A DNA stretch of 64,000 nucleotides from Asparagopsis taxiformis. Its lineage: Eukaryota > Rhodophyta > Florideophyceae > Bonnemaisoniales > Bonnemaisoniaceae. The DNA is taken from positions 1-64,000 of the forward strand of contig JALQPE010000474.1 in assembly GCA_030407315.1 (NCBI GenBank). Direction: 5' to 3'. Of this stretch, positions 16,759 through 59,427 are shown piece after piece (the stretch's first letter is position 1; each line of letters opens with the position of its first letter). Position numbers and translations under genes: made by a program. Under the pieces are notes generated by a model that was not told the DNA's origin, did no database searches, and saw nothing but the letters and a program-made list of their open reading frames with translations.

Positions 16759-18942
16759 TACACGGATGACTTTGAACCATTCACAAGCAGGAAGGGAATT
16801 TTTGGTGGATGCTATATGTTACCTCTCAATCTACCGCCTCGGAAAAGGGGAAGCTACCAAGCGGTTCGAGTGATTGGTTTGCCACCTCCGGGAGTGTCCA
16901 CAAATTGTGTATTGCGATATATCGTTCAAGATATAGTGCGAGGAAGCACAGAGGGTTTCCCAACGAAAAATGCAGAGGGAGAAGATGTTGTGGTATTTCT
17001 AGACCCAGTGGGGAGCATTGGAAACTATCCTGCAGTTTCACATACCCTGGATGTTCTTGGACACACATCAAACTCTCCGTGCCACATCTGCAGTTTCCGC
17101 AAATATGACCTGAGTAGTACTGGTGGCACGAAGAATGCATACACTTCGGTAGTGAACGGGCAAACATCGACGCATGCCAGGAGCAAGTATCGGAATGCAT
17201 CGACACGTAAGGATGCCACAGAAACCCAGCTTCGCACTCTCGGACTGGCTGCAGAAGAAGGAGAAGATTTACCATTTCATGTCCTGAGCACTTCCTTGGA
17301 AGCAGTGCAGGAAGAAGTACCGAAGACGGAAAACGGAGTTTCAGTTGTCCCAGCAATTTTTGACCCGTACCGTTCCGCAGTGATAGCACCTGACCATCTA
17401 TTGTCTGGACTGGCACAAGATGTACTGAACGCTTGTATTTCAGCTGCCAGCCCACGAATTCGAGAGGTAGCTGAATTGCAAATTCTGGGCGCTCTGAAGA
17501 AGTTCAGGATGGGAAGGCAGAACCGTTTATTTGGAACCAACAATCTGCTTTCCATGAACATGAGTGACATATTCAGTGTGCTGCTGATAGCACCTATGGC
17601 ATTCGAAAACGCAGCTCAAATGATGGATGGGAAAGGGGAAGGTCATCGTGAAAAATTTGATGGGGCCGTCAAACTAGTAGTGATGTTTCAGAAGCTGGTT
17701 TCGTGTATTAGTTTCATGCCCGTATGGTGGAAAGACGGTCCACATGAAGTAGAGACGGCTGACGGAGAAGGTGGCAGGAATGAATACATTCTGGGAAGAA
17801 CCGTAGACTACGTGGAGACGTTGAATGAGTATTGTCGGAAAGTGAAGGGAGCAGGAGCACATTTGGACAAGCCTAATGTTCATCGTCTTGTCGAGTTTTG
17901 TGTTCATACGCTTCCTGCCTACGGCTCTGTGAAGCACGTGCAGGAGCTTATATTCGAACGGATGCATCAGCCGCTGAAGAAAGTTGTGAGAATGTCCAAT
18001 CACCAAAGCGAACAGCTTTCAGCGCTGGAATTAGTTCTTGCGGATGACTGGCAGACGAGAGTGGCCATTGTTTTGCGCGAAATCGGCATGGAGCCACAAC
18101 ATTGGTCCTCGTCCTAATGCTCTCAAATGGTCAACGTTCTTTCACAGGAGCTAGGGAGAGAAATAGATGTGGAAGACGAGGTAGTAAAAAACTGCTTTCA
18201 GGAACCGGTTCTCCAGCTTCTCTCCCAGCGTCGAGGAAAGATATTGTCGGCGGATGGTGAAATTGTGACGTGGAGAGGGCATGGAGGTATATCTATTGAC
18301 GAGGTCAAGGAGTACATGAATGGAAAATGTGATATGGCAGAGGGTGCTGTAGGTGTTTTCAAACGGTTCTTTACCGAAAGGTACGGAAGCGGAACAAGCG
18401 GGTGTGGAAAGTATGCCGAATGGGTGAGAAGAGTTTCTAGAAGCACTACGACAGAGTGGGGAAAGAAAACAGTGCAGAGGTCTGGCTCTCTAGAATCAGG
18501 AGCTATCATCCATGCTGTTTGCCCTGAACAGAGGACATGTGAGGATGGTGCAACTTCACAAGCGATTCTGTACCCGGCGTCTCGTCTCACATCAGAGATA
18601 ATGCGGGGAAGAATTAATTATGAACCGCGGTTTTTTATTGTTCTAGCGTTCTTTATTCTGAGGAACGAGAGTGCGAGAGATGAGCAAGGTACAGCTTATG
18701 GAGTTTGCCTGGGTTTGCAAAAAACTGATGAAGGAGTGTTCAAGGTCGAAGAGAGGCGACGAACAGTAATTGTGGAGATGAGTGAGGGAGTCACTGAGGT
18801 GTTTGCTATGCACTATTGCAATGGGAATGTATGCGAATATGATGAGAACATGAGGGAGGTAAGGCACGGACTCGGACTGCTGGAGGGTGGAGAGATATAT
18901 GCACTATGTAGGCGAGACGGATTTCCACTGAGGGCTGCATGA
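16759..18942 (+). pseudogene. DDE transposase of cluster I, N-terminally truncated and with one internal stop
   Basis: The frame is open from the LTR junction at 16759 and runs to a TAA at 18115-18117. It then continues in the same frame from 18127 to a TGA at 18942, so one in-frame stop divides an otherwise continuous protein. The start includes Phe-Gly-Gly-Cys-Tyr and Asn-Leu-Pro-Pro-Arg. The middle has Gly-Asn-Tyr-Pro-Ala-Val, Leu-Gly-His and Cys-His-Ile-Cys. A later Asp-His-Leu-Leu and a Phe-Glu-Arg-Met-His-Gln-Pro-Leu-Lys segment follow. This order resembles the CACTA/Plavaka/KDZ group of RNase H-fold transposases. The usual Asp of the Gly-Asp-Tyr-Pro motif is Asn here, which would disable catalysis. 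The N-terminal part was removed at the Gypsy insertion. An AATAAA follows the stop at about 18955. Confidence 0.8.
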
Positions 18943-19061
18943 TTTTTAGGGAAGAATAAATGAATAACCAGATGCATCACATATGAATTGTACACTCTAG
19001 GGCGTTGGTGGATTGGTGCAAAGTAGTGGGGAGAGGATCTGAGAGGATGGAGGGAGGTATG

Positions 19062-19100
19062 CTTACAGCAAAGTCATCGTAACGATGACTTTGCTGTAAG
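19062..19100. repeat. 39-nt palindrome, solitary copy
   Basis: Arms CTTACAGCAAAGTCATCGT and ACGATGACTTTGCTGTAAG (19 nt each) around a single A. The sequence is identical or nearly so to six further copies in this window and lies between the transposase gene and the first ParB-like gene. It could form a cruciform or bind a dimeric protein. Confidence 0.95.
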
Positions 19101-19930
19101 AAAACGTTTCATTACAGCAAATTCATCGATTGTTAAGGTTAAGTAACCAACTTTAGGATGTCCAGAGGACCTGCTCGTTGTAAGGAATATTGATCAACTG
19201 ACGAAGAGGAAGCATTTTGAATCGAATAGGGTAGGAAGGCAATGAGATTTAGTATGCAAGAAAACTGAATCGCAGTAGTGCATAGGTAGTTGAAATGAAT
19301 TCATATTGATGTTCTTTGGTGTATTGTCCATTGGAGCACATTGAAAACCATTTATATGATCACCGTTTAAATAGTCTATGAATCCTTTGCAGCCGAGTAC
19401 GCCAATAGGAAGAAATTCAAGCAGTGGACTGCACGGGAACCGTTTATTTGTGAGTAGCAAAAGTTAGTGTAGAAATGAATTTTTCAGACTTGTAGGAGAG
19501 GTGGATCGTAGTAAATGTATAAAACTCACGTAGAATCAATTGATAGGAATCAATGGTACGGAAGAAGAAGCGAGGTGGAGAGTGTGGATGAAATAGGTTG
19601 TTGGAATATGAATGATAATTGACGTGGTAAGGTAAACGGGTTCGATTGCATTATATGCGCTAGAGGTACATACTATTAGGTGTAGATTGATGGAAAGGGC
19701 TAAACGCTTTGTGGAGGTATCAGGATCAGGTAGAGTCAGAGGTGCTGAGCGGGTGCAGCGTAAGGTTCATCAGGACTGAAGGTAGGTAGGGGATGTCCTG
19801 TCCGGACAGTATATGAGAGGAAGCTGAGAGACGGGAAGCGCACTCGGAGGTACCACAATTGTGGATTTCATGGTCTACACAACATTTGAACAGAGAACCG
19901 ATTGAACGAACTGAGATTGCAGGGATTACA
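19101..19930. other. Intergenic stretch upstream of the first ParB-like gene
   Basis: AT-richer DNA without a convincing gene. A partial echo of the palindrome (ATTACAGCAAATTCATCGAT) lies at about 19111-19131. An in-frame ATG at 19859 could extend the next gene by 24 residues, but the ATG at 19931 gives a more natural N-terminus. Confidence 0.4.
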
Positions 19931-22811
19931 ATGGGAGACAATAGTATCATGAATACTCCAGCGGAGAAGAGCAATTCTCCTTCTGCTGAAGAGAAAAGCA
20001 TCACTATTGCTCAGTACAGCTCTTCTAAAGTGCAAGTTGATCCTCGCAAAGTGAAATTTCCGACAGTGAACTCCCGTTTGGTGCGACCGGGTCGTGTAAA
20101 CGAACTGGCCAGCATTTTCATGGATAGAGGTTTCTCTACCACTGGAACTATGATTACAATCTGCAAAATGGAAGATAACGAAGGAGACGAGTTTTACTGC
20201 ATCGATGGCTCTCATCGCATAGCTGCTCTGCAACTATGCCTGGAGAAGTACTCAGGAAAGAACAGGGATTCCTTGGAATTGGTTTGGGTACAACAGTTGA
20301 TTGCGCCGAACGGGCGTCTAATTTTCGATGCGCTGGAGGTTCTGAAACTGTCTCTCGAAGCCAATATACAAACTCACGATGTCGCGTTTACAATGCTTTG
20401 GACAGGAACAGAGAAATCGAGGATGCAAGAACCGAGGGAAGAGATCCGGATTTTCTCGAATTGACTCTGCCGATATGTACGGGTGCGTGCTCGATCTTGT
20501 CAATAACGCAATATTCCGCAATGGCACGGACGGACGAGGGACGCGCGATAAGGAGTGGTTCCAATGGTTTGTGCTCGAGATGACAGCGTCGTGGACAAGG
20601 ATGAGGAGGAAGAGAGGACTTGTCAGAAATATCGGAAGCGGAAGCCCGTTCACGATGCGCACTTGGCTACTGGCTCTGTTGGCCATCTATGATATGGCAG
20701 AGGTCGTCCGCAAGTGGTTGAACTCTGCAACGATGGAGGAATTCGTGCGAACGGATTTGGCAGCAGAAAACGCGAAGGAGGTCGGGGATAATGATCATCG
20801 CATTGGAGAGCGCATTGTATTCGTCCTTGTCGACTTTCATGACGACGTGGTAGACAGAATCAGTCTGAGAACCAAGAACGGGATGTTTACAAACAGTTTT
20901 TACGACAAACTGGAATATGCTACCGGGACAAAGGCAATGCAGGAGACGAAAGCGGAGGAGGAGAGGGAACGGAATCGCATGACCCCCGGAGAAATAGAAA
21001 AAGCACTTGTTGCTGGCGCCAAAGCAGAAGACGAAGAAGCACCTACTGCCGCAGAACAGGGAAATAATTCTACAGAGAAGGAAACGGTGGAAACTCTCAA
21101 GCAGAAGAAGGAGTATCTGCCGAAGCCCAAGTAGAGCAGGAAGTTTCTGCTGTTGTGGAGGAAGAACAGGAAATTACTCCAAATGTGGTGGCTGAAGAAG
21201 TGATTCCTGCTGTCGCGACGAAAGCAATAGAAGAGGCACCTCTGAGCACCCCGAAAGAAGCAGAAGACCGTCCTGCCGCAGCAAAAGAGGGAGGACAGGA
21301 ACGTCCTGCCACGCGTCTTGCAGCAGCTGAGAAGAGGGAAGCAGAACGTCTTGCTGTTCTCCAAAAAGAACAGGAACGTCTTTCAGCTTCAAGGGCAGAG
21401 CGGGAAAGTCGTGCCAGGGATAATTCGCCGGAAGGATTGTCAGAGAAGATTTTCCTCAGGGAAGGAAACAAAGCGGCGATACGCAAAGTCTGGATATCAA
21501 CTTGGACAATAGTGGTCGCATGGACATAGACACGCCTGGACAACAAGCTGGAGATGCGCAGAACCGCTCTGTGATATTGAAACTTCGAATCAGGACACCA
21601 GAAACTAACAGCACTAGCCCGGCAGAAGCGGACAAGGAGAATTCGGGAAGAAGCGGGAGTTCTGGTGGAAGCGGCGATGAAAACGAGTCCAGGTTGCATA
21701 AGAAGCGAAGAAGGGAAGATACTAGCGCGAAGTTTTCTGAGCCCAATACGCCGGATGACAACATTGAGATTGGGCCTCCCCGGGAAAAGAAGAGTAGAGT
21801 CAATGCAAGAAAACGAACGACTGGAGAAGAAGCACCACTCTTCACTGACGAGCAAGAAAACTCCCTTCCAGACCGCACATTCGCAGAGGAAATACCTGAG
21901 AAGCTGCCTTTATGCGTTCCTTCCAACTCGAGAATGAAGTATTATATCAAGAAGAAGATATTGATACAATCCGGACGGAGATAATGGAAGCAGCTGCAGG
22001 CTACTCTACTTTGGTATGTCCCCTCGGTTCTTGTGAAAGCCAACAATACTTCAGCTACCAGAGAAGAATGATCGACGAGCTTGGTTACGTGGTGTTGCAA
22101 GACATTTTCTCTTCTACTACAGTGGGAGCAGCTACGCACGAGTTATTCACACAGATGGCCAGCACATTCCAAGGTACTACAAGTGGCTCAAGTGCAAGTC
22201 AGAAGAACCCGTGGAAACCACTTCGACCGAAAGGCAGCACTGGTGTATTCAAGACGGACCGGAAAAGCATCTGCGATGACCTTGAGCAAGAAAGCGCGCG
22301 GCAGTACAGGAACAAGCTGATTCTGGAGCTAGGTAAGGCGATTTGTGCGGAGAACCTGAAGCTCGGGTTTGGAAGAGAAGAAGCGGTGGTCTTTCCAGAA
22401 ACGGGTCTTCGTCTGATTTTGACCGCAGAAGGTAGTCAGGAGCAACTTATGCATACCGATGTTCCCGTCCGTGAGGGAACTGGAACTGGTCCTCTCAACT
22501 CGCCATCATATTTCATGATGGCTGCTGGTGCAGATGGGTTCATCATTCGTATCGCCAAGTTCAGCCATGTGTGCCTATGTCATCCAGCGAAAGACAAGTA
22601 CCGCGTGCCAGTGACGAACGTGCGCATCCCACCGTATTCCCTGCTTGTATGCCGAACGGACGTGTATCACGGAGGAATGGGATTCGCGGAGGGTCGTTCT
22701 TCGGTGAGGTACCAGCATTCTATCCGGTCCCACCTATCACTGCGAACTTCCAGGGAGAAGTTGCTACAGCCTCCCTTCAATGTCAACTACTGGGAGCGTT
22801 TAGATATCTGA
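19931..22811 (+). pseudogene. ParB-like domain / 2OG-Fe(II) dioxygenase protein A (frameshifted)
   Basis: Five overlapping frames join into a protein of roughly 950 residues. The N-terminal part (to about 20290) is ParB-like, with Asp-Gly-Ser-His-Arg-Ile-Ala-Ala-Leu near 20203-20229 corresponding to the ParB/sulfiredoxin-type box. A helical middle, a Glu/Ala/Lys-rich coiled segment and a Ser/Lys-rich linker follow. The C-terminal part (21990-22790) looks like a 2-oxoglutarate/Fe(II) dioxygenase: His-Thr-Asp at 22452, distal His in Val-Tyr-His-Gly-Gly at 22668, and Arg in Val-Arg-Tyr about 13 residues later. Frame changes fall near 20400, 21130, 21510 and 21930. It is paralogous to proteins B and C. 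Substrate unknown; DNA bases or chromatin proteins are inferred from the fusion and neighbours. Confidence 0.72.
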
Positions 22812-23032
22812 TGAAACTAGTTCTTAATAGCATTCTATGGCAGGCATCAAGGCCGCCTTCAAGTAAACGATGAAAGTTAGGCTAGTACATGACGTTTGCG
22901 TATGTAGACGGGTCAGGAGATATACAATACTCAATTTAATATGAGAAGGGGAGGAAACTATGGCGGGCACTACTAGAATAGAACAAGGTAATATCGCAGT
23001 CGTCTTTGGTTGCAACATTGAGGTGAGGAAGG

Positions 23033-23268
23033 CTTACAGATGATGCAGTTTCGCTGGGGTGCTGACAGCAAAGTCATCGTTACGATGACTTTGCTGTAAG
23101 AAATCAAATCATTACAGCGGCCACAATTTTTTACCGGGTAAAAAATTCTTGCTGATTTTTTACCAGGTAAAATTTTCTCACCACTGTAATCAAACCTTTC
23201 CTTACAGCAAAGTCATCGTAACGATGACTTTGCTGTAAGCATCCCGGGTAAACGGCTTCGGCTGTAAG
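23033..23268. repeat. Compound palindromic hub 1
   Basis: Two copies of the 39-nt palindrome (23062-23100, centre T, first base changed in CTGACAG; 23201-23239, centre A) enclose an inner inverted repeat (ATTACAG...CTGTAAT with two TTTTTTACC-GGTAAAA segments). Outside them lie the outer inverted motifs CTTACAGATGATGCAG on the left and GGTAAACGGCTTCGGCTGTAAG on the right. The whole unit is therefore a palindrome made of palindromes. Confidence 0.85.
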
Positions 23269-23809
23269 CGGTTGGGAGTTTCGTCCGTCTCCCACCCTGG
23301 GAAGGGTGAGAAGGGAAGTGTGGAGCCGGGAACATCGTACAACGATGGTTCGGACGGCTGTTGACGGCTCTGGGGAGCACTCTGCGTCGTGCAAGCCTGG
23401 TTTGCGCTGGCTGCACTACCTGGTATTGAACGGTTCTGTGCGCAAAGTTTACTCATGAAGGAGGTAGGGTGTTGTGTACCACACCAACCATAGTTACTAA
23501 CATTTCCAGTGTACTCTAGTGATGTAATTATTATTCTAGTTTCTAACTATACAATGATATTAAGTAAGTCAGATGTGCACAGAGCATGGTCTAAGCCTAG
23601 CACGGTAGAGAAAGATGGAAGAAAGATTGAAGGGTAGGCATGCAGAAGTATGAAGGCAGCAGTATGTGTAGACTATGGCAGTGGTAAGAAAATATTTCAT
23701 GCACCAAAGGGTGGACAGAGTGACATTAGAGAGGTGGTGTGTAGGGGGAAGGTAGGTGGAGATGATGAAGGAGGACAACAGAAATGAGAGCGAGGGTTGA
23801 GACCAACGG
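23269..23809. other. Spacer between hubs 1 and 2
   Basis: The left 70-90 bp match, in inverted orientation, the sequence just left of hub 3 (GGGAGTTTCGTC...GGTGAGAAG versus CTTCTCACC...GACGAAACTCCC). A minus-strand ORF from 23456 runs through this stretch into hub 1 and stops there (84 codons, Pro/Ser-rich); it may be a truncated gene start. Nothing else is recognised. Confidence 0.5.
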
Positions 23810-24019
23810 CTTACAGATGGAGCAGTTTACCAGGGATGCTTACAGCAAAGTCATCGTAACGATGACTTTGCTGTCAAGAAACAAAACATTACAGTAGCCA
23901 TGATTTCTTTACCCGGTAAAAAAATTCCTGGCCTCTGTAATGAAACGTTTCCTTACAGCAAAGTCATCGTAACGATGGCTTTGCTGTAAGGATCCTTGGT
24001 AAACTGCCTGAGCTGTAAT
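23810..24019. repeat. Compound palindromic hub 2
   Basis: Same organisation as hubs 1 and 3: 39-nt palindromes at about 23839-23878 (one extra base, CTGTCAAG) and 23952-23990 (one substitution) around an inner CATTACAG...CTGTAATG inverted repeat with a TTTACCCGGTAAA core. Outer arms are CTTACAGATGGAGCAGTTTACC and GGTAAACTGCCTGAGCTGTAA. Confidence 0.85.
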
Positions 24020-24080
24020 TGTCGTACAACGAAAAGTGATGTGGAAGGTTCGGATTGGTCAACCGCTGAATATCATTACC

Positions 24081-24110
24081 AGGGTGTATACTAATAGGAA
24101 TATGTCAGTT
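24081..24110 (+). promoter_or_regulatory. TATA-like element upstream of gene B
   Basis: GTGTATACTAATAGG lies about 135 bp before the ATG at 24224 and is followed by a pyrimidine-rich leader (CTTCTTCTCTCTTTCTG). The same arrangement of a TATA-like element 75-135 bp before ATG recurs at 28156 and 32701. Confidence 0.4.
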
Positions 24111-24223
24111 CTCTAAGTTTCGCCTATCTTACTCAGCTTACGCAGCAGAACAACTTGTCGTTCAGATCTTCTTCTCTCTTTCTGAATCTTTCACTCTTCG
24201 TTTGTCAATCACTCATCAAAACA

Positions 24224-27200
24224 ATGGCTCAACAATCCCCGAACGCTTTCGACCGCCAGGTGCGCTCTGCCCCGCCGCCCGTGACACGATTCTCCCACTC
24301 CTCTCCCTTCTCTGGCCCCCCTGTCCCCATGGACGTTTGCGAAGCTGCTGCTGCGCTGACCCAGCTCAGCCCAGCACCTAAGCCCGTCCCCTCCCCCCTT
24401 CCGCTTCCGATCCCGCGGTTGTCCCGACAATCGACGCTGGCGTTCCCGCAACTCCGCTTCTGGCTCAATCTGCCGAAGCGGCGCCAGCCGTCGAGGGATC
24501 TGGTGCTCCTCTGCCTAGCTCGCCTGCTCCGGACATGATCATCGCGTCCGGCAGCGACTTGGCAGAGGATGCGGAGAAGGTCGATGATCACAACGCTCGT
24601 GACATCGTACCGAACATGCCTCTCCGCAGCACCAGGCTGGCCTACCCTGGCACAGTGCCCATCCCGGTGGATGTGGACTACGACATAAGTCCGGAGAGCT
24701 GCCGAAAAATTCCAGTCTTCATTTCCCCTCTGGATGTTTCTCCTCCGGCAGTCGTGTCCAGGGTGGTCAGGCCGCATCGCGTTGATGAGTTGAAGAAAAC
24801 GTTTCTCACTCAGGGATTTTCCGTGATTGCTTCACGCGTGTCCGTCTGCGAGGTGATTGATTCCAATGCCAAAGTACGACTGCAATACGTCGATGGATCT
24901 CACCGAGTGACCGCGTTGAAGGCCATTCTCGAGTCGGCTGGACCTGCTCCTGCGAAGGACAGTCCAGAGTGGGAGGAGTTTGTCAAGTCTGACATCTACC
25001 GTCGCTTTGGAACTATTCCAGTCGACTTTCTCCTCCCACCGACTCGGCTTGGCCGGGATGTCTTCTGCTCCGAAGAAGTACTCCCGCTTTCACGGCTGAT
25101 GAACTTCCACACCCACAATGTCAGCGAGGTAACAGTTGCTGACAATGTGTGCTCTGTGATGGAGTTCATCAATATCCACCGCCTGGGAAAGAAGAAGATC
25201 GAGCCGACTGTTCAATACATAAAAGAACGGAAAGCGCTGAGCTGGATTCGTCCGAGACAGCTCATGCGCTACGTCTCGATCGCGCGAGGGTTCAAGACCA
25301 TTGAAAGCCCTGCTTTCAAGTACTGGTCGAGCATCCCGAACAGGCCGGAGTTCGTGCAGTTTTCTTCAACTGAAGATCTGGCTCGGTGTACGGTGAACTT
25401 GTTGTTCAATGGGTCGTTCAGGAGTGCTCCGGATGTGCAGAAGTGTTTCATCCTGGAGATGACGGCGCGCTACACTTGTAGCCGTCGGTCGGCCGGGCTT
25501 AAACCGTACTCGGTTGGTACCATTGGGCAGGAATGGATTGCTGGTTTGTTGGAAATCTTCGGGTACGTGAAGGAGGTGGCCGAGTACTGGAACGTGTCGG
25601 ATGTGTTGCGGATGCTGGATGGTTCAATTCCCAGCGTGGGTGACCCGAGCAAGAGCTTCGACATTCGCTCGCGCGTTGTCGAAGTTCTTGCTCAGATGGT
25701 CCCCAAGAAGGGGTGTTGGGCAGACTTCCGTCCCAAGGAAGGCCCCCCGATGGTTACAAGTCGGAGAACATTTTTCCCCGTAAGAAGTCTGTCTTCGGGA
25801 AGGACGCCAGGAAAATGCTCCTGCGCGTCACTGGGTACCGCGACATGATTATGCGGAAACGCTTTCACGCGATGTACCCAGACATCCCACATGCTGCGCT
25901 CCCAGCCACATGTGGTGATGATGCCCCCATCCCTTCCTCTTCCAATTCCTTGCCCATCCCTTCATCCTCCATCCCTTTGCCCCCACCACCTCAACTGGAA
26001 TCTTCCAGCGATTCCGAGGTTGCCCCTGTTCCTGTCTCTACCCCTGCCGTGTCGGCATCCTCCCCTGCGGTGACCCCGGTCAAGCCGACTGCGCGTGGTC
26101 CCCAGGATGGCAGCGAACGCTCTGGTCCAGTTTCCCGCCGGGACTGGTACCCCCAACCGTCCTGTCCAAGCCACGCAGGAGCAGGTCTCACCGGCTTCGC
26201 AGCCTGAGCCTGCGACTCCGGCTGCCGAGCAGCACCCTGCTGCTCCGGCCCCCGCTGTCGAAGCTTCCCGTTCTGCATCTGCTAGCAGTTCGGGAAGCTC
26301 CAGCGATGACAGTTTCGTCGCTTCACCATCCGGTGGGGTTGGACAGAAGACGGTTGCGAGGATTTCGACGGAGGGCCCTACTCCCGAGAATGTGGTCGAG
26401 GGCAGCAGTGCGAAGGGTGGTGCAGATCCTGACGGGGATGTTATCGAAGTCAGTGATTCTGCACCGCCCGGAGTGGAAACTTCTGGGAGGAAAGTGATGC
26501 CCAGAAGGAGTACCCGCCTGCAAGCGAGTCGTTCCGGTCGTGGTGGAACGGCGGGTGGTGCTGTGGAGGTCGTCGAGCTGGAGAGCGCCCCCGAGGATGC
26601 GGGTGAAAACTCCATCCTCGGGAAGCGTAACTTGGAAGCAGCTTCTGCGACGCCCGAGCCTTCTACCAAAAAGAAAAGGCTCGGTGAGACTTCATCAAAG
26701 TCGTCGTCAAAGAAATCCAAGTCGGCTTCCCGAGGTCGCTCTCGGGAGCCGGTTCTCCAGTTCGACGACGCCCAGGAGAATCCCATTCCCGACAGTATCG
26801 TCGATGAGAATGTGGCCGCCGTTCTCCCCAGCGCAATTGCGTCTGGCAGCCGGATGAAGTACTATATGGAAAGTACGACGGTGGAGACGGTTCGGGCGGA
26901 AATGAGGGCGGCAGCATTCCAGGTAGCTGCATCGCCGGGAGCCGAGGAAACGATGGTGAACAGTACTTTGCGGTGAAGCGGGCGTTGCTGGAGAACTTGG
27001 GGGTTATTGTTTTGGAACGCTTGTTGGAATCGTCCACGGCTGGGAGTGCGACGCATGAGCTGTTCGGTCACTTCGCTAGGCAGTTCCCGCTGGTTGAGGA
27101 GGTTGAAAAACCCTCCCAGCAGTCTGATTCTAACGATGACGACAGGGAGCCACAGGACGAGCCGCCAGCTTTCGCAAAGCCCGGCTTCGATCCTTCGCCG

Positions 27201-27838: not shown

Positions 27839-28155
27839 CATACCAGAAGTATTAAAACCTATACTACTGTTCCCTGCTAAAAAGTTCTGTCTTTCTCATC
27901 TCAACATTGTTATCTTAGCCCACTTTTCGGTTTTCATCTATACATCTGGCCTTCATCTCATAGTTTAGTGCTACTCAGCAGATTGCTTGCTACTTTTTAA
28001 TATTAGTCGACAACGTTGTATGATTTTACTAGCTAGGCCGTAGGGGGAGACTAGTTTCAACCCTTGACAACGCGCACATTTCGACTACGAGAGCCGTCAC
28101 TGTGATAAATTATTGGTAGAATTTTCGTCTATCTTCCCACCTACACTAGGCTACC
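27839..28155. other. Intergenic stretch after gene B
   Basis: AT-rich, no gene seen on either strand. Confidence 0.4.
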
Positions 28156-37370: not shown

Positions 37371-37377
37371 AACGAAG

Positions 37378-47276: not shown

Positions 47277-47600
47277 AATGGAATGAGTGGAAATTCGGTA
47301 CAGGATGGCGACCGCTCGGCGAGACAGTCAAATTTGACGACGTATCTCGTGACGTTTGCACTCTTTCGTGAGGAACACTGGTTGATATCGAACGGAACAG
47401 AGTATACGGGTACACAGCACTGGAAAGGTCTTGAAACCCGTAACCGGTGTAGGTAATAAGTTGTGACGGATACGTGGTAGAGAAAAATTTTAAAAAGATT
47501 GTGATTCCCTGTCTTTGAGGGTTGTACTGCACGGCCGCCATGGCGGCTGTGACTGCAGTCACATAGGTTGTCACAGGTGCATCACGCTTACCAGGTGAGC

Positions 47601-47807
47601 GACATCCGGACGGCCACTGGACATGGGGATGTCCAGCTCAGATGCATTGCTGGCCAGACCAGAAATTCTACAATTTCGGGCAGCAAAAATATTGCAAAAA
47701 AACATCGATTTGGGCGGTCGATTGTGCCGTACGGCACACCCCCATCTCAAAAACATGTTCACATGTGCATGTTTTTGAGAATAGCCCAAATTTTAATTCA
47801 AATCAGG
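47601..47807 (+). repeat. R repeat copy 2 (right inverted end)
   Basis: Matches the reverse complement of copy 1 over most of its length. The inner ~25 bp is more divergent; the rest, including GTGCCGTACGGCAC and the CTCAAAAACATG hairpin, is nearly exact. Confidence 0.9.
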
Positions 47808-48831: not shown

Positions 48832-49893
48832 AGCTAATGCATTACTGGCCAGCCCAGAACTTGTAGAATTTCGGGCAGGAAAAAAATTGCAAAATTTTAT
48901 CGATTTAGGCGGTCGAAAGTGCCGTACGGCACACCCCCATCTCAAAAACATGTTCACATGTGCATGTTTTTGAGAATAGCCCAAATTTTAATTCAAATCA
49001 AGGTGTCTAATTTGGCCAGAACGGCCCCAGGCACCGGCCGCCGCCCCGAGTGGGGTTGTCACTGGCTTCTGTAGGCACTAACTGTAAGGCTAAATGGCGT
49101 CTGACGAAGGGTCAATTTCAGGCTCAATACGCCAGGGACAGGTCTTGGTCCTTGTTCCATCATGGTCCCGCCTCACTCTCTCACGACCAACCTGAAATGG
49201 ACGTCCGGTGGATGTCCAGCTCGATTGCACTGCTGGCCAGCCCAGAAATTCTAAAATTTCGGGCACAAAAAAATTGTAAAAATCATCGATTTGGGCGGGT
49301 CGATTGTGCCGTACGGCACACCCCCATCTCAAAAACATGTTCACATGTGCATGTTTTTGAGAATAGCCCAAATTTTAATTCAAATCAGGGTGTCTAATTT
49401 GGCCACAACGGCCCCAGGAACCGGAGCCGCCGCCCCGAGCGGGGTCATCACTGGCTTCTGTAAGCACTAACTGTAAGGCTAAATGGCGCCGAAAGATGGG
49501 TCGATTCCAGGCTTCAAGCCTAAGTTATGCTAGGTACGCATCTTCTTCCGTGTTTCATAATGGTCCCGCCTTACTCCCTCAACACAAACACTACTCACCC
49601 ATCACGTTACTCATATTCCGTGCACTTTATATTAGTAGTGATCCCGCCTGCTTAGTTACTGCAATGCGTGGATGTAGGCAGCACACGATCAACCTGAAAT
49701 GGACGTCCGGTGGATGTCCAGCTCGATTGCACTGCTGGCCAGCCCAGAAATTCTAAAATTTCGGGCACAAAAAATCTTGCAAAAATCAACGATTTGGGCG
49801 GGTCGATTGTGCCGTACGGCACACCCCCATCTCAAAAACATGTTCACATGTGCATGTTTTTGAGAATAGCCCAAATTTTAACTCAAATCAGGG
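48832..49893 (+). repeat. Left R-repeat array: copies 3-5 with shared spacers
   Basis: R copies at 48832-49002 (5' truncated), 49189-49390 and 49691-49893 are all in the same orientation. Spacers begin GTGTCTAATTTGGCC and continue with GGCCCCAGG...CACTGGCTTCTGTA. The first spacer is ~185 bp (type 1, ending TTGTTCCATCATGGTCCCGC), the second ~300 bp (type 2, including GAAGCCTAAGTTATGCT-like sequence and TTAGTAGTGA). Both spacer types recur in the right array in the reverse order. Confidence 0.88.
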
Positions 49894-50239
49894 TGTTCCC
49901 CGGATAAAGGGGTGCTCGCAGCCGCCCCAAAAGCCGCCTAGCTTGACAGCTGTAATTTTAACACATTACACATCAAGGACACTGCCTGCTTCACGCCACC
50001 TCGTCAGGTTTCGAGAGCCCGACTCGGGCCCGTTCCGAACGGACACTCACATCTCGATTGCCTGTCTTGCATTCCAGCGGTCACGATAGGTGTGTACCTA
50101 ACAAAATTTCGGTTGTATTGTGTTATTATTTCCAGCGATTGGCGTTCACGACCATTCTTCAAGCAACGTGAAACCTACCATCCACATCACTCGAATACGT
50201 CAACGTCAACCATCTCTTTTACTTTCCAACTCAACAATC
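49894..50239. promoter_or_regulatory. Upstream region of the intact ParB-dioxygenase gene
   Basis: About 345 bp without another gene. The last 130 bp form a C/A/T-rich leader (CATCTCTTTTACTTTCCAAC) before the start codon; TTGTATTGTGTTATTATTTCC at about 50113-50133 is the best TATA-like stretch. Confidence 0.35.
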
Positions 50240-53200
50240 ATGGCGGATACGCATTTCAGCAGTTTGTTTTCAACGGTTTGCGGCGATCAAGTGAGCGCGT
50301 CAGCGGAGTCGCGCGGACTCAAGCGCGGCGTCGATGTCAATTTGTTTGCGGACGTGGACGGTGCGGCTGTGCATATTGGGACGGCTTCGGTGAGCACTGC
50401 TGGTGGCGATGTTGGCCTTCCGCGCACGCTGCACAACCACAAGCTGCCGGAAACCGACGAGGCCGACTACATCGTCGTGCGCAACATTGCGACTAAGGAC
50501 AAGTTCAAGGACCTCCCGTTCCCGTACATGTTTGATGGCGCCGAGGGACCGCCGGAGACGATGGGTGGAGCATACGCCGCGGCGTTTTACCCTTGGGATA
50601 CTCGGATGATGCGCCCCGCTGCGGAGGATGGCCCTAGCGACATTCGTACCCCTGCTGCAGCGTCAAACTTCAACGCAGCGACGAACCAGGCCAGCTCGGG
50701 ACGGATGCCCAGTACCGGTCCGGCAGGCGAAATCACTGGTTCGGGGGGTACGAAGCATCCAGCACGCTCCGTCCCGGTTTCGGGAGGCACGAAGCGCCCT
50801 GCTCGCTCTGCAAGACCCTCCAGTGGAGGCACGAAGCACCCTGCTCGCTCCAACGTCACCGAAGCTACTACGCAGGACGTAACCGAAGTGGACGACGAAC
50901 CGGAGGTGGCGGAAAGCATTCGTGAGCAGCAGGGGACGCAAATTACGGTGCCCAAGTTTGTGACGTCGGATTACGTCGGAGAAGGAGCGACTGTGCTGGT
51001 GAGGCAGCTAGTGGAACCGGCCGTGACCCTTCGGGATGTGAAAGAAGACCACGTGGAGGACCTGCGCAACAATATGTTGGCTGTGGGGTATGTGAGCTCT
51101 TCGCGTATCACTGTGACGGTGCTGAGGTCGCAGAACACGCATCTGCCCGCCGACACGCGTCTGTTCCAGAATGGCAAATTCCATGCCAATGCGAACGTGA
51201 CCGTGATCGACGGACTGCATCGTCTCAATGCTATGCATAGCATTGCCGATGACTTCACGCGCCTCACCCGTATGCACAGAACCAAGCTGCCACAGGACGC
51301 AAACCGCTTGCGCTGGGTTACTCAGCCTCTGGATGTGTACTACCTTCGCCGCAAGGACGACAGTGATCTTCAGCCTCATGAGATCATCCACAAGAGTGCA
51401 GAGTCGAACCATACGACTGGGACGCAACTGACGGAGCGCTCCCTGGTTCGAATCTTGTCGTCCATCCAGCAGTTCATCCGTACGATTGCTGTTGCAAATA
51501 ACGTGGAAAACGCTGGCGACTTGCGTGAGTCTGATGTCATCCGAACATTGTTCGAGGCGCAGTTCATGGGGATGATGAATTCAACGAACACGGCCCGGCG
51601 GTGGACGCGTTTGGCTATAGCAACGCTGAAGCATCCTGTTCTCGACGAAGTGTTGCGTGAGCTGAACAATTCCGAGCGCCGCAACGAGATTGGGATAACG
51701 CACCTGGACCACAAGATAGTGCGCGAGTTGCTGGAAGAAAACTTTGTCTTCGTCTTGCGTGGTCTTTCGGAGTACTTGAACCCTGCTCATGGTGGACGTC
51801 CGGATGGACGCTTTGACGTGAACGACTTCTATACATACGTCCGTCGCGTGACTGCAATAGCAAATTCTCTGTACGCTGCGTATGGGCGCCCAAAGAGTAT
51901 TATGCGCAAGTCATTTCTGAGCACAGAGATGGCAATTGGGTCGGTTAAGCAGCCGAAGGAGTTGCAATGGCATCTCACCAATGCCATTGCAATGTATAGA
52001 GGGGACGACCGGAGCAGTGAGGTTCGAATGCGACGGAGAACCACGCGTTTACAGGATTTGGAAACGAACTTGAAAGAGTTTTTCAATCCGACATTGAAGA
52101 AGAAGACTAAGGCTCGACGCAAACGCCGCCCTTCTGCTGCCAATGTGAGACTCACTCACAAGAAGCAGCGGAATGTCGAACATGAGCCTGCTTCGCATGG
52201 CATCCGCCGCCGTTCACAGCGACTTCGCTCGACGGGGAGCACACGCCTCGAGGAAGAAGAGCCGGTTGTGGTACAACAATCCGCCGGGGAAGAAGAGCAG
52301 GCCGTTGTTGATAAACCCACCGATCAACAACAAGCCACTGCTTCCGGTGATGAGGTTGACGAAGACTCCGCCCGTTCCCCCGATTCTGCCGTTGAGATTG
52401 TCCCCCAAGATAACCAACGTGCTGGTGCGACTCCCTCCAACCAAGAATCTGTCCATACCGCTTCGGACGAGGAAGACAAACAGGGTGCAGACGAGGGCCA
52501 AGTCGAAAGCAAGGGGGTCCGCGAAGTGACAATTACATTCACTGTTCCGGAAGGAGTGGAAGTCGATGAAGACGGTTACATCGTTCGTGACTCTCCTTCT
52601 GAACACGACCTCCTGTTCGACGACCGTATGCCATCTCTTCCCGACGATTTCGAAGTCAAAGACCGAGCTGAAGGGCATCATCTGGCGCAGCGTCCCGCGG
52701 ACGTCATCGCATCGGTGAGGGTTGGCTGTCTGCCCCCGATTGAGCTCAGGTTGTTATTGGAGAGTGTGGAAATCGATGAGGAGGGCAGAGAGGTGAGGTA
52801 TTTGAAGCAAGTGGCGATGGACCCTGTGTTTGAGGGGCTGCATATTCCGGAACAACATCGGGCTCGTCATCTTGTTTTCGAGATCGACACCATCTATCCG
52901 ATGTTTTTCGCAGCGTGGAAGATGGCTGCCAAGGCGATGTGTGAGCCTACATCGACGTTTCTACCCTCGAGGCTGGACTTCGCCCAGGTTGCGCGAATGT
53001 CTACAAGCTGGAAGGATTCGTATGAGGCCGGCACTGGTATGGCGTACTTCCACAATTGCCGAACGGAAATCAACGAGCGAGGGTATACGGTGATGCACAA
53101 TTTCGCGGATGTAAGCTACCTCGATGCGTCGGACAAGTTCCCATTTGACTTGGGTCTCATGGAAGAAATTCCTAACCAGGAATTGTTTCGGTACTTTTTG

Positions 53201-54196
53201 GGAACGTGGGAGGGGGAGGAGGTGCACAAGGACCCTGGGAACCGGCAGCTGTGGAGTCCCATTGTCAATACTGGGGACGATGAAACAGATGAGAAGAACC
53301 GGAATGAGGGGAGGGCTCGCTTCACGTCTACGCGCCACTGCCTGGTTGACTATGCCGAGAACGATGAGACGCATATCGACCGGTTCAAGTTTGTGACGCG
53401 GCGAGCCCTGCTGGATGTGTGGTTGGGAATCCTTGTCCGGCTGATAGGGCTGGAGGAGTGCGGTTTACCGGGAGAAAAACTTGTCATGCCGGCATCTGGG
53501 GGACGGTTTTTGATAACGGGAAAGGGGTGTCCTCGGCAGGTCCCACACAATGATTTCCCTGTTCCTCCTCGCGACCGCAAAGATCAACTTCCGGGTTACT
53601 TTGTTATTGCCAACGGAGATGACCCATTCCCTATCTGGGTGTGTCCAGGGTCCCACAAGTACGTCTTTTCCAAAGCGCTGGAATTAGATATGTACGCCAA
53701 GACGATGAAGCTGAAGAAGGTAATCGTTCCGCCACGTTCAGTCTTCATCGGTCACGGCCATGTACAACATGCCGGGGCAGGGCATGTCGACAGAGTTGTG
53801 TCACACACGACAACGAGGTATCACACGTATTTCAGGAATGCGTCGTATCCGATTCCCGACAATGTTTCGTTTGGTTTCATCAGGCGGTTGGGATTCGAAG
53901 AAGAAGTAATCGCCAATGCTCCGCGCCGGTCTGCCAGGCAAAGTCAACCGGCACCTGTCAATGTTCGCCACAAGACAGTTGTTCCCATCCCGGTCAAGAA
54001 AGATCGTAGGCCGAAGACAGGGCAACTCGGAATCATGCGGATGAAGACGACAGAAGCTCCCAAGAAGAGAACCCTCACACCGGGTCAAAAATTCATCTTG
54101 AGCTATTCAACTCCACAGTTGCCGATAACGCCTATTCTGCCGGGAGATCCTGAATATAGTGAGGACGAAGAGGAAGAACAATTTTCCGACGGCTAG
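50240..54196 (+). CDS. ParB-like domain / 2OG-Fe(II) dioxygenase protein C, intact
   Basis: An uninterrupted 1318 residues from the ATG in AATCATGG. The frame is open 40 codons further upstream, but that segment is leader-like. Residues 165-204 hold three near-repeats of Ser-Gly-Gly-Thr-Lys-His-Pro-Ala-Arg-Ser. A ParB-like domain spans about 235-370 with Val-Ile-Asp-Gly-Leu-His-Arg-Leu-Asn-Ala-Met at 322-332. A helical region follows (380-610), then a basic stretch (615-665) suited to nuclear import or DNA binding, and an acidic linker (670-755). The dioxygenase is about 900-1215: His1103-x-Asp1105, Cys-Pro-Gly-Ser-His at about 1134-1138 as in PhyH-type enzymes, His1177 in Val-Gln-His-Ala-Gly, and Arg1193. 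The complete HxD...H...R set predicts an active enzyme. Basic and acidic tails end the protein. Substrate unknown. Confidence 0.8.
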   Translation: MADTHFSSLFSTVCGDQVSASAESRGLKRGVDVNLFADVDGAAVHIGTASVSTAGGDVGLPRTLHNHKLPETDEADYIVVRNIATKDKFKDLPFPYMFDGAEGPPETMGGAYAAAFYPWDTRMMRPAAEDGPSDIRTPAAASNFNAATNQASSGRMPSTGPAGEITGSGGTKHPARSVPVSGGTKRPARSARPSSGGTKHPARSNVTEATTQDVTEVDDEPEVAESIREQQGTQITVPKFVTSDYVGEGATVLVRQLVEPAVTLRDVKEDHVEDLRNNMLAVGYVSSSRITVTVLRSQNTHLPADTRLFQNGKFHANANVTVIDGLHRLNAMHSIADDFTRLTRMHRTKLPQDANRLRWVTQPLDVYYLRRKDDSDLQPHEIIHKSAESNHTTGTQLTERSLVRILSSIQQFIRTIAVANNVENAGDLRESDVIRTLFEAQFMGMMNSTNTARRWTRLAIATLKHPVLDEVLRELNNSERRNEIGITHLDHKIVRELLEENFVFVLRGLSEYLNPAHGGRPDGRFDVNDFYTYVRRVTAIANSLYAAYGRPKSIMRKSFLSTEMAIGSVKQPKELQWHLTNAIAMYRGDDRSSEVRMRRRTTRLQDLETNLKEFFNPTLKKKTKARRKRRPSAANVRLTHKKQRNVEHEPASHGIRRRSQRLRSTGSTRLEEEEPVVVQQSAGEEEQAVVDKPTDQQQATASGDEVDEDSARSPDSAVEIVPQDNQRAGATPSNQESVHTASDEEDKQGADEGQVESKGVREVTITFTVPEGVEVDEDGYIVRDSPSEHDLLFDDRMPSLPDDFEVKDRAEGHHLAQRPADVIASVRVGCLPPIELRLLLESVEIDEEGREVRYLKQVAMDPVFEGLHIPEQHRARHLVFEIDTIYPMFFAAWKMAAKAMCEPTSTFLPSRLDFAQVARMSTSWKDSYEAGTGMAYFHNCRTEINERGYTVMHNFADVSYLDASDKFPFDLGLMEEIPNQELFRYFLGTWEGEEVHKDPGNRQLWSPIVNTGDDETDEKNRNEGRARFTSTRHCLVDYAENDETHIDRFKFVTRRALLDVWLGILVRLIGLEECGLPGEKLVMPASGGRFLITGKGCPRQVPHNDFPVPPRDRKDQLPGYFVIANGDDPFPIWVCPGSHKYVFSKALELDMYAKTMKLKKVIVPPRSVFIGHGHVQHAGAGHVDRVVSHTTTRYHTYFRNASYPIPDNVSFGFIRRLGFEEEVIANAPRRSARQSQPAPVNVRHKTVVPIPVKKDRRPKTGQLGIMRMKTTEAPKKRTLTPGQKFILSYSTPQLPITPILPGDPEYSEDEEEEQFSDG

Positions 54197-54470
54197 ATAG
54201 CTTAACAACTACTACTTTGGTAAACAATTATCGAGAATATAATCATCTCCTTTATCACTTCCAATCTATGAACCTAGTATAATGTACTTCCGTTCCATGC
54301 TTTCAAACTAGATTGTCCATTCCCTCGTGGGTTGGAGCATGATTTCCAGGACGATTCCCTCACATCTCTAGACTCGATGGTCTATGGTAGAAATAGCAGA
54401 ACAATTGGGTTTGTACGTGCTTCATCGCCTACTTGCTTCCGGTAATGGGTGGACGTGCACGATACACGAT
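54197..54470. other. 3' spacer of gene C
   Basis: No gene seen. AT-rich, including TATAATGTACTT and TATAATCATCTCC stretches. Confidence 0.4.
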
Positions 54471-55495
54471 CAACCTGAAATGGACGTCCGGTGGATGTCC
54501 AGCTCAGATGCATTGCTGGCCAGCCCAGAAACTCTACAATTCAGGGCAGAAAAAAATATTGCAAAAAACATCGATTTGGGCGGTCGATTGTGCCGTACGG
54601 CACACCCCCATCTCAAAAACATGTTCACATGTGCATGTTTTTGAGAATAGCCCAAATTTTAATTCAAATCAGGGTGTCTAATTTGGCCACAACGGCCCCA
54701 GGAACCGGCCGCCGCCCCGAGCGGGGCCATCACTGGCTTCTGTAAGCACTAACTGTAAGCCAAAATCGCGTCTTACGAAGGTTCGATTCCAGGCTTGAAG
54801 CCTAAGTTATGCTTGGGTGACATCTTTTTCCCTGTTTCATCATGGTCCCGCCTTACTCCCTCAACACAAACACTACTCACCTATCACGTTACTCATATTC
54901 CGTGTACTTTGTATTAGTAGTGAACCCGCTGGCTTAGTTTCTGCAATGCGTGGATGTAGGCAGCACACGACCAACCTGAAATGGACGTCCGGTGGATGTC
55001 CAGCTCAGATGCATTGCTGGCCAGCCCAGAAATTCTAAAATTTCGGGCACAAAAAAATATTGCAAAAAACATCGATTTGGGCGGTCGATTGTGCCGTACG
55101 GCACACCCCCATCTCAAAAACATGTTCACATGTGCATGTTTTTGAGAATAGCCCAAATTTTAATTCAAATCAGGGTGTCTAATTTGGCCACAACGGCCCC
55201 AGGAACCGACCGCCGGCCCGATCGGGGGCTATCACTGGCGTCTGTAAGCACCAACTGTAAGCCGGAGCCGGCTGCCGCCCCGATCGGGGCTATCACTGGC
55301 TTCTATTAGCACCAACTGTAAGCCAAAATCGCGTCTCACGAAGGGTCGATTTCAGGCTCAACACGTCAGGGAAAGGTCTTGGTCCTTGTTTCATCATGGT
55401 CCCGCCCCACCCTCTCGCGACCAACCTGAAATGGACGTCCGGTGGATGTCCAGCTCGATTGCATTGCTGGCCAGCCCAGAAATTCTAAAATTTCC
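54471..55495 (+). repeat. Right R-repeat array: copies 6-8 with shared spacers
   Basis: R copies at 54471-54674, 54972-55175 and 55422-55495 (3' truncated after AATTCTAAAATTTC). Spacers are type 2 and then type 1, mirror-ordered relative to the left array, while the repeats themselves keep the same orientation. Each full copy has GTGCCGTACGGCAC and the CTCAAAAACATG hairpin. The type-1 spacer has gained an internal ~60-bp duplication (CTGCCGCCCCGATCGGGGCTATCACTGG). Confidence 0.88.
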
Positions 55496-56814
55496 GAAAA
55501 ATCAATTTGGTGGCCCAGCATCTCCTGTGCCGAAAATTCCCGCACTCACTTCTGATATACGTCTAGACTTGTTTCCCACTTGTACGCATCAGGGAAGGCG
55601 TCACGGAAGGTTGACACTACGCTACTTGTGTACCGCGTCGTCTGAAATAGCGAGTAGTGTTTGTTGTATAGTTGTGGAGTATGCGTCTAGTGGTTTGTAA
55701 AGCTTGCAGAACGGGATAGGGATGTGGGTGGCCCTATTTTATGAATACATGAGTACCAATATTCAGGGTTGACAAAGCGGAAAGGCATAGGCTCATACAT
55801 GTTTGAGATTGCATAGTAGAGAAAATATTTCATCGAAATTTACATGGAGCTGATGGAGGTTTTAAGGATGAGGTATGAGAGGAAGAAAATTCTTCTGTGG
55901 TATGAGGATGTGTTCTGTGGGGGGATGGAATCTTGGGATGGTACAGGGGGAGGTGGAAATGTACGGAGTGCGGGTTTAGAATGGATTGTGATTCGGAGAG
56001 GAGTGCCGACAAGCATATTATGGGGATTGGGGAGACGCTGCGGGGTGTTGGGGTAGTGAGGGCGGAGGAGGTGTTTAGGTGGGACCGTAGGAGGGTGCGG
56101 TTGAAGGCGCCGAGAGGAGGGGTTTTTAGGAAAGTGAGGAGAAAGAAGGGGAGGGGGTGGCGTCTGTTCTGGCTGTGGTGAGTGGGGATGTGATGGAGAA
56201 GAAGGGGTTATTGTATTTGGGGAGGGAGGGGAGTGGGAGGAAGGGTGCGAAGTGGGGGGTTGATATGTGTTTCAGAGCGGGGAGGTTTCTGGGGATACGG
56301 CGGGGGAGCCACCCCGCAGTGCGGGAGCGTGGGCCGGTGGTGGTGGTGTATACGGTATCGAAGATGCGGATGGCGTGGGGGCATGGAGCAGCTGAGGGAG
56401 GGAGGGGTGGAGCAGGTCGGGTACGGGATGGGGAGTGAGAGGTTTTGGAAGAGTAAGCTGCAGGGGAAGTTTGTGTAGAGGGCGAAGGAGAGGGGTTGAG
56501 GGTAGAGGAGAGAGGGTATTGAAGAACAATACGTTTCAAAGGTGATGGGGGAGAGCATGGTCGAGGAGATAGGGGGTGTTTTGCCCTATTCTGAGGTAGT
56601 ATGAGGACTGGTTATACGAAATCTGTACGGTAGAGCAGAAAAGTAGGTATGGAATGGAGGTGTGCACCGTGGAAGCGGGGATAGGTAGCTGAAAATGCGT
56701 GCTAGAGTGGTATTGGGGGTGTTTGAGGTACAGTACGGGGGAGGTGAGCACCAACAGGAAGGGGGTGTGAGCGAGAGGATGAAAAAATTAAAGACGAAAT
56801 TGGAGTCGACCGAC
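55496..56814. other. G-rich stretch with possible decayed zinc-finger sequence
   Basis: From about 55840 the plus strand is strongly G/A/T-rich, the strand complement of the C-rich DNA near 36160-37370 at the opposite end of the cluster. A short frame at 55933-56181 contains Trp-Lys-Cys-Thr-Glu-Cys followed by a spaced His, loosely like the zinc finger at the start of the 38013 transposase, so this may be a remnant of another transposase. No intact gene is seen. Confidence 0.35.
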
Positions 56815-57092
56815 AAGGAAAAATAGAGTGGTCGCCGTGATGGATGCGGACATCCATGTCGAGCACGGCGGCAGAAATTTCTGGGGTCGAAATTTTTGAA
56901 TTTCTGAACCGGCGCCCGTCCTAGGTGGACATAGACATGGCGGAAGTCCATCCCGAGGGGGACATCCGTGGTACTAGAAACAATGAATGTCGCCCTAGTA
57001 ATACTAGACGTACTAGACCGCATGGACGTCCGGTTCTAGGCGGACATCCAAAAATACTGGAGAACATGGACGTCCGCCTAGTAATACTAGGT
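56815..57092 (-). repeat. Right subterminal repeats of the cluster II element
   Basis: Multiple GGACGTCC-type motifs and CTAGTAATACTAG-like palindromes (for example CCTAGTAATACTAGACGTAC near 56992 and CCTAGTAATACTAGGTGTAC near 57076) echo the GACATCC/CTCTAGTAC units near 35580-35759. Confidence 0.6.
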
Positions 57093-57139
57093 GTACTAGA
57101 GGTTGTGGACGTCCGCGTCCATTTCCGAGAACACAGACG
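57093..57139 (-). repeat. Right 47-bp inverted end of the cluster II element
   Basis: Reverse complement begins CGTCTGTGTTCTCGG and ends CTCTAGTAC, matching 35455-35501 at 41 of 47 positions. Outer flanks also show a weaker TTCAC match. This would place the right end of a ~21.7-kb element at 57139 or slightly beyond. Confidence 0.7.
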
Positions 57140-59426: not shown

Positions 59427-59427
59427 C

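Follow-up and report, generated by a model that had tools for sequence, protein, structure and literature searches.

The DNA transposon Sola1-1_Ec32 of Ectocarpus encodes a 1,104-amino-acid (aa) protein that joins a ParB-like part to an N4C/N6A methyltransferase, and its description likens this protein to those encoded by transposons of green and red algae (PMC12477816). Fungal transposons of the Plavaka, EnSpm, Zisupton and Kyakuja groups carry TET/JBP genes (Kojima, 2025, PMC12730594), and the same account cites SET-bearing HarbingerS and MuDR elements of oomycetes as well as anti-silencing by Vandal elements of Arabidopsis. Giant repeats flanked by Plavaka have been described in Amoebidium (PMC11244446). 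Here we describe two adjoining DNA transposons, elements A and B, in the red alga Asparagopsis taxiformis (contig JALQPE010000474.1 of assembly GCA_030407315.1), each of which carries a transposase, an N6/N4-type DNA methyltransferase fused to a SET domain, proteins with ParB-like and 2-oxoglutarate (2OG)-type motifs, and an accessory protein. The window, by which we mean the whole stretch of DNA analyzed, covers positions 1-64,000 of a contig of 72,224 bp, and genome-wide searches covered the 141.5-Mb assembly of 3,156 contigs. The Bostrychia genome presented by Petroll in 2025 is said to hold giant Plavaka elements as well, and it may already contain part of what we describe.

The locus shares several features with these systems. 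Like Sola1-1_Ec32, element A is a giant algal DNA transposon that combines a putative ParB-like part with a bacterial-type DNA methyltransferase in one protein, encoded on the strand opposite the transposase, whereas the SET fusion and the ParB-like/2OG-type (ParB-2OG) protein found here have no mention of SET or an oxygenase to set beside them in the description of that element, which has a Sola transposase (PMC12477816). Like the fungal Plavaka and EnSpm elements with TET/JBP genes, the locus pairs a transposon with a putative oxygenase gene, which in the fungal elements probably acts against silencing; however, ParB is absent from the main text of that account, and its methyltransferase passages concern SET, C5 and host enzymes (PMC12730594). 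HxD is retained in the 2OG-type protein of our elements, for which no match to TET/JBP was found. In the oomycete HarbingerS and MuDR elements, a SET gene lies inside a DNA transposon as it does here, but the passages on them do not mention a fusion to a DNA methyltransferase (PMC12730594). An earlier model-made reading of the window (hereafter the original prediction) could match the gene set to no described system. The ingredients are in fact already published; what appears to be new is their combination, together with two fusions (methyltransferase to SET, and ParB-like to 2OG-type domain), and in the literature searched, mostly titles and abstract openings, we recognized no description of either fusion in a transposon.

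Elements A and B are two DNA transposons that stand end to end, each with its own terminal repeats. The window copy of A starts directly after position 16758, the last base of a 660-bp long terminal repeat (LTR; 16099-16758) that is 98% identical to 3162-3812 and 58770-59426, and B closes at 57139, the outer end of its right terminal repeat, so that the limits originally proposed, 16759 and 57139, coincide with these borders. The elements adjoin at 35454/35455, where B lies at the broken end of A. The insertion is not clean: no target duplication was seen at this junction in the window, and the DNA to the right of B (57140-58769) matched neither the rest of A nor the other loci compared. A whole copy of A occupies 19,410 bp of another contig (C436:188459-207868), with CACTACGGTGTTG at both ends; it is without window positions 17313-22135, its matching blocks are 95-99% identical, and it holds GACAGT subterminal repeats, with 8 in the first 400 bases, 8 in the last 400 and 11 elsewhere. 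On contig C64, A ends lie 19,324 bp apart with accessory, methyltransferase and ParB-2OG matches in between. The termini of B are CGTCTGTG..CACAGACG, and a copy on contig C1850 is collinear with the window (largest blocks 99.2% identical over 11,928 positions and 98.3% over 5,191) and has different DNA on its left flank. Genome-wide, the A terminal motif occurs at 904+930 exact sites (1,834) and the terminal inverted repeat (TIR) pattern of B, with up to two mismatches, at 1353+1383 sites (2,736), and the reversed-pattern control gave 0 for each. Gene order differs between A and B, as had been predicted. Features that go beyond the original prediction are the second ParB-2OG gene of A, a ParB-like stretch before its methyltransferase and its extra 467-aa frame, as well as the adjoining of A and B and the palindromes in both.

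We examined how often these genes recur together, using hit lists that give lower bounds and cover the best candidates only. The ParB-2OG gene of A has a methyltransferase within 25 kb in at least 13 of 37 copies, 12 of them at 4.2-5.2 kb on the opposite strand, and the accessory gene of A does so in at least 43 of 90 copies, 38 of them at 4.0-5.3 kb on the same strand; at least 9 of the 37 ParB-2OG copies are linked to accessory A. For B, the ParB-2OG gene is linked to Plavaka in at least 4 of 34 copies, all at 13.17 kb, and to a methyltransferase in at least 2 of 34, and Plavaka is linked to a methyltransferase in at least 13 of 123. Among the matches listed, transposase A is found with a methyltransferase in at least 5 of 40 copies, with accessory A in at least 1 of 40 and with ParB-2OG A in 0 of 40. 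Distances to terminal repeats were taken from 100 listed places per pattern on contigs up to C117 and C102. In 10 of the 11 copies covered, accessory A lies 832-838 bp inside the terminal repeat; a methyltransferase lies 6.4-6.5 kb inside the A terminal repeat in 8 of 16 copies, which include other methyltransferase types, and 5.2 kb inside in one more. Of 13 Plavaka copies on the contigs examined, 9 lie 3.1-3.6 kb inside the left-type B repeat, and ParB-2OG B lies 3.3 kb inside the right-type repeat in the single copy (1/1). Because the genes lie inside their own terminal repeats and are repeated genome-wide at fixed distances, the linkage in each element is real and not chance nesting. The proposal that these are mobile units rather than chance neighbors is upheld by the elements' own terminal repeats, collinear copies and fixed distances. 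The expectation that four families recur within about 25 kb of each other and near inverted ends is borne out by recurring fixed offsets and by the distances to terminal repeats, but many copies have no listed partner within that distance.

Several genes are broken in the window copy of A, and open frames exist elsewhere. The copies scored were the best-scoring candidates only, and their shares without stops are not genome-wide rates. All 37 scored copies of ParB-2OG A are without a stop and encode 1,253-1,261 aa (best-scoring of 7,334 candidates), as are 33 of 34 scored copies of ParB-2OG B (of 4,715) and 89 of 90 of accessory A (of 1,407). We compared nonsynonymous with synonymous substitution rates (dN/dS) in ParB-2OG copies, in nine chosen methyltransferase loci and in four of the five other transposase loci, with transposase loci L002 and L003 lacking a 900-aa frame. 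ParB-2OG gave ratios of 0.20-0.41 where dS exceeded 0.03, and the methyltransferase-SET genes 0.27-0.51 where it exceeded 0.02; the ratios were 0.24-0.93 for methyltransferase family b and 0.30-0.90 for transposase A, close pairs being uninformative. These values fit purifying selection on the cargo genes, as judged from the best-scoring copies. The features of both elements are collected in Table 1.

Table 1. Features of elements A and B in the window.
Feature	Position	Strand	Basis or remark
Element A, left part missing (LTR retrotransposon cut)	16759-35454	+	blocks in copy C436; termini there
Transposase A, C-terminal part, two frames in window	16759-18939	+	RAG1-like DDE core and BAH-like C-terminal part (predicted)
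A palindrome copy 1, 39 bp	19062-19100	.	39-bp near-perfect palindrome
ParB-like/2OG-type gene 1 of A, several frames in window	19817-22808	+	near-identical open form P0017, 1,086 aa
A palindrome copy 2	23062-23100	.	39-bp palindromic site
A palindrome copy 3	23201-23239	.	39-bp palindromic site
A palindrome copy 4	23839-23877	.	39-bp palindromic site
A palindrome copy 5, one core mismatch	23952-23990	.	39-bp palindromic site
ParB-like/2OG-type gene 2 of A, several frames in window	24098-27835	+	C436 open gene 96% identical
A palindrome copy 6	28343-28381	.	39-bp palindromic site
A palindrome copy 7	28455-28493	.	39-bp palindromic site
ParB-like-N6/N4 methyltransferase-SET gene of A, three frames in window	28801-32356	-	one 1,186-aa frame in C436
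467-aa open frame, function unknown	32735-34135	+	no match in B
Accessory protein of A, C-terminal part, cut by B	34458-35454	-	470-537 aa in most frames elsewhere
Element B, complete Plavaka-type transposon, 21,685 bp	35455-57139	+	inverted ends; collinear copy C1850
Left terminal inverted repeat of B	35455-35488	+	TIR pattern
Plavaka transposase, 1,036-aa frame	37941-41048	+	PF18759 E=1.7e-24, 87 bits vs cut-off 26.3
Accessory coiled-coil-like protein of B, 670-aa frame	41132-43141	-	no similarity to accessory of A
B module with palindrome GTGCCGTACGGCAC and 13-bp-arm inverted repeat	43646-43827	-	beside methyltransferase
N6/N4 methyltransferase-SET fusion of B, 1,084-aa frame	44076-47327	-	Pfam N6_N4_Mtase and SET in one frame
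B module, four copies upstream of ParB-like/2OG gene	47627-47808, 48838-49008, 49182-49395, 49684-49896	+	
ParB-like/2OG-type protein of B, 1,364-aa frame	50102-54193	+	conserved motifs; no stop in 33/34 scored copies
B module, two copies downstream of ParB-like/2OG gene	54429-55180	+	
Right terminal inverted repeat of B	57106-57139	-	TIR pattern

The predicted fusion of a methyltransferase to SET was found in both elements, in a single frame in B and, for A, whose window copy is broken, in a single frame on C436. N6_N4_Mtase (PF01555) and SET (PF00856) were matched at 3.1e-15 and 1e-6 in B and at 1.3e-16 and 3.7e-7 in A; PF01555 was above its cut-off in both elements, where the DPPY/DPPF motif is read, and SET scored 30.9, 29.6 and 27.5 bits in the fusion proteins against a cut-off of 22.4. 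The fusions of A and B are homologous (25% identity over 445 aa, E=1.7e-37). Database searches with the B protein returned 16 homologues, one 99% identical and 15 at 27-36%, and precomputed annotation gives both Pfam domains for 12 of all 16; because 15 relatives stand at this distance, the fusion probably occurs beyond this genome. In an alignment of the window protein with 15 of these homologues (A1, from which the 99% identical P0001 was left out; a further alignment, A4, left out 10 of 50), both prolines of DPPY are invariant in 16 of 16 sequences, D and Y are missing in P0007 and P0008, and the whole motif is present in 14 of 16. The family profile matched the adenine N6 methylases DpnA, CcrM and RsrI best among solved structures, with MboIIA lower and N4 enzymes at about 2e-3. 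Because the best structural matches are adenine methylases, the product of the enzyme is likelier to be N6-methyladenine (6mA) than N4-methylcytosine (4mC). SET methyltransferases are expected to hold an NHxCxPN motif, and the SET parts here read LNDCR or INDPR at that place, with the final tyrosine-glycine present; the SET part of the family profile matched the SET domains of EZH2 and SET8.

The methyltransferases also resemble prokaryotic proteins. The phage DNA methyltransferase family phrog_67 was the best phage-family match for 4 of 4 methyltransferases scanned; it is prokaryotic, and the matched profile is without SET. Some phage and bacterial DNA methyltransferases carry ParB. The methyltransferase of A matched a ParB-like partition protein family weakly (phrog_1033, E=0.003), with no Pfam ParB match, and a family of unknown function more strongly (phrog_4272, 1.7e-5), and the protein of B gave no ParB match in profile scans of Pfam and phrog. 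A tblastn search of phages returned 39 records, and the 12 listed match the methyltransferase core only. Viral contigs held 7 stretches that fit the pattern of the methyltransferase-SET alignment and 143 that fit that of the transposase A alignment, and neither set contained relatives. Genome-wide, PF01555 has at least 150 matches, all over the cut-off (best 150 of 2,605 candidates scored). The genome also has at least two other types of N6/N4 methyltransferase (loci L011 and L014; C2077, C609), whose frames, as far as read, contain no SET; one has DGMHRQCA in its first part and one has a cysteine-rich end.

Proteins with both ParB-like and 2OG-type domains had been predicted for each element, and the homology and motifs bear this out in part. 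The two ParB-2OG genes of A stand in tandem and are 34% identical to each other, and homology also links the 2OG-type proteins of the two elements (29% identity over 207 aa, E=1.2e-14). The ParB-like motif DGxHRxxA is kept in the five sequences compared, and HxD...H...R, the residues expected of 2OG-Fe(II) dioxygenases, is invariant in four. On the profile side the prediction found less: members of the ParB-2OG alignment gave sub-threshold ParB-type hits (DndB, 0.12; GmrSD_N, 0.04), from families that we take to share the ParB-type fold, and 2OG families gave no profile match at E up to 10. Profile searches of the PDB with the protein and its parts returned nothing, or weak unrelated matches, and an AlphaFold2 model built on a three-sequence alignment reached a pLDDT (predicted local distance difference test) of 30, which is too poor for fold comparison. 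Taken together, these motifs and homologies make the ParB-like and 2OG identities likely. The only database match of gene 2 was P0017, a near-identical form of gene 1, and no relatives of gene 2 were found elsewhere by this search, which depends on shared exact words. Another 2OG-type frame with HLD lies just outside element A on C436 (209911-210732, minus strand; L040:8911-9732), which suggests that further elements may carry this domain.

A DDE transposase had been predicted for each element. That of B is confirmed by its Plavaka profile match (Table 1); for A, the predicted structure resembles RAG1 in fold, with a BAH-like C-terminus, but Pfam gave no match. Open forms of transposase A include 1,227 aa at locus L005, where the locus edge cuts the 5' end, and the 1,267-aa database protein P0018, which is 99% identical. 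The two transposases are related at most distantly, as judged from BLASTP (E=0.04) and from an hhalign alignment (E=0.0013, probability 19%) in which the D, CxxC and DPY..H motifs line up collinearly. Element A begins with 5'-CACTA, as CACTA/EnSpm elements do, since CACTACGGTGTTG stands at both ends of the C436 copy. CACTA/EnSpm elements make a 3-bp target duplication, and the flanks of the C436 copy, the one copy read, repeat only 2 bp (GA); a link to RAG1 is expected for the wider CACTA-Mirage-Chapaev-Transib group. Judged by its transposase, B is a Plavaka element, but its ends place it outside the PlavakaA and PlavakaB lineages, as they fit neither terminus pattern: fungal PlavakaA has TGT..ACA and PlavakaB CATCA..TGATG, with a 2- or 3-bp target duplication (PMC12730594). 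A perfect 34-bp palindrome, ACGTGCGCGAATCTTGATCAAGATTCGCGCACGT, lies upstream of the Plavaka transposase (37380-37413), and a 43-bp tandem repeat of 4.2 copies lies near the left end of B (35580-35759).

The minus-strand accessory proteins had been assigned to one family. We rejected this as unsupported, as BLASTP of the two accessory proteins gave only E=1.2 and a BLASTP comparison of five A with four B proteins likewise detected no similarity between them. Around the elements, window positions 1-16758 and 58770-64000 are Gypsy-type LTR retrotransposon sequence, in which 3162-8391 appears again at 58771-64000 (98.8%), and large minus-strand frames lie at 13282-15352. The GC content of the window's 2-kb blocks ranges from 45 to 64%, against about 44% stated for the short reads of the A. 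taxiformis L6 draft (PMC12115072). In the assembly, 11 of 13 phycobilisome gene matches fall on one plastid-like contig, which fits a red-algal host. A PAP2 search gave 12 matches among 19 candidates and did not reveal the cluster of bromoperoxidase genes that would be expected.

Both elements contain palindromic sites. Both in the window and in C436, the seven palindromes of A occupy spacers flanking its ParB-2OG genes. All seven modules of B contain the palindrome GTGCCGTACGGCAC with an identical 36-bp inverted repeat. The 33-bp core of the A palindrome occurs at 8,325 exact sites genome-wide and the 36-bp hairpin motif of B at 3632+3701 (7,333), with 0 in the control for each; one shuffle of the A+B region yielded zero palindromes of the scanned kind. 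Among the matches listed, shorter units between facing neighboring ends hold these sites as well: both A units covered (8.1 and 8.8 kb) have 5-7 of them, and all five B units (10-16 kb) have 3-7. These modules could be mere promoters, terminators or recombination hot spots that have nothing to do with the ParB-like proteins, a reading we place a little short of an even chance, because the sites lie in intergenic spacers, one of them convergent (28343-28493), and the B palindromes lie within repeats of about 170-250 bp. What speaks against it is that the exact core recurs so often, that spacings of 110-114 and 138-141 bp are frequent among the matches listed, and that the sites are retained in shorter units.

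These domains most naturally point to a role in chromatin marks. We consider self-directed anti-silencing by element-coded enzymes to have an even chance of being correct, because Pfam domains occur in both elements, the genes are linked as units, frames are intact with dN/dS as above, palindromic sites are present and transposase A ends in a BAH-like part. The genes, their linkage and the sites are observed, selection is indicated by the substitution rates, and from these we infer each biochemical step and the targeting, as follows. The ParB-like parts, or the accessory protein, would direct the enzymes to palindromic and subterminal sites of the same element, where the methyltransferase would methylate DNA (with 6mA likelier than 4mC). 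The SET domain would methylate a protein that is probably a histone, and a methylated base would be oxidized by the 2OG part. Together, these marks would counter host silencing by keeping the chromatin of the element readable. The BAH-like C-terminus of transposase A is a possible reader of the mark, and the same proteins would act in trans on shorter units in which the sites are kept. En/Spm TnpA and Vandal VANC are element-coded proteins that act on their own element's sequence against silencing and are not known to have enzyme domains, and A and B would be like them in acting on their own sequence and would differ in having such domains.

Methylation could instead control transposition, with the methyltransferase marking terminal and internal sites, the transposase acting only on methylated (or hemimethylated, newly replicated) copies and the 2OG part resetting them, so that copy number or timing is governed. 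Dam control of IS10 is a precedent for methylation-governed transposition, and numerous palindromic sites, present also in shorter units, and the BAH-like part in the transposase A model agree with such a scheme. It has no need of a SET domain, however, and purifying selection and intactness fit it and anti-silencing alike, and we regard it as unlikely though worth keeping in view. Partition-like targeting, in which the palindromes serve as loading sites for element-coded ParB-like proteins, their fused enzymes (methyltransferase-SET and 2OG-type) write and erase DNA and protein marks along that element, the transposase reads them and each family has its own site and proteins, strikes us as rather unlikely. 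The enzymes might act mainly on competing transposons or host genes, since oxidized cytosines in Coprinopsis and Laccaria are also found over other transposons in a review (PMC12730594), but each element has its own site, held by the few units examined, which leaves this reading improbable. That the genes are chance neighbors through nesting of unrelated transposons, which might be supposed from the nested state of the window (an LTR element cuts A, and B lies at A's broken end) and from the many copies without a partner within 25 kb among the matches listed, was rejected as extremely improbable on collinear copies, fixed distances to terminal repeats and homologous methyltransferase-SET and 2OG-type genes in both elements.

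For the Asparagopsis contig with the mbb (bromoform) cluster, a figure legend lists genes whose abbreviations stand for site-specific and adenine-specific DNA methyltransferases (PMC12115072, Figure 4), and these may belong to transposons like A and B. Transposons with a single anti-silencing enzyme are already known; here a putative DNA writer is fused to a putative protein-lysine writer and accompanied by a probable DNA eraser. The element-specific palindromes offer a concrete binding prediction, and with more than 1,000 terminal-repeat sites in each of the two transposon families, self-editing of chromatin is testable in the living alga. Taken together, the enzyme genes and the many palindromic sites suggest that A and B alter the very marks that would let the host recognize or silence them.

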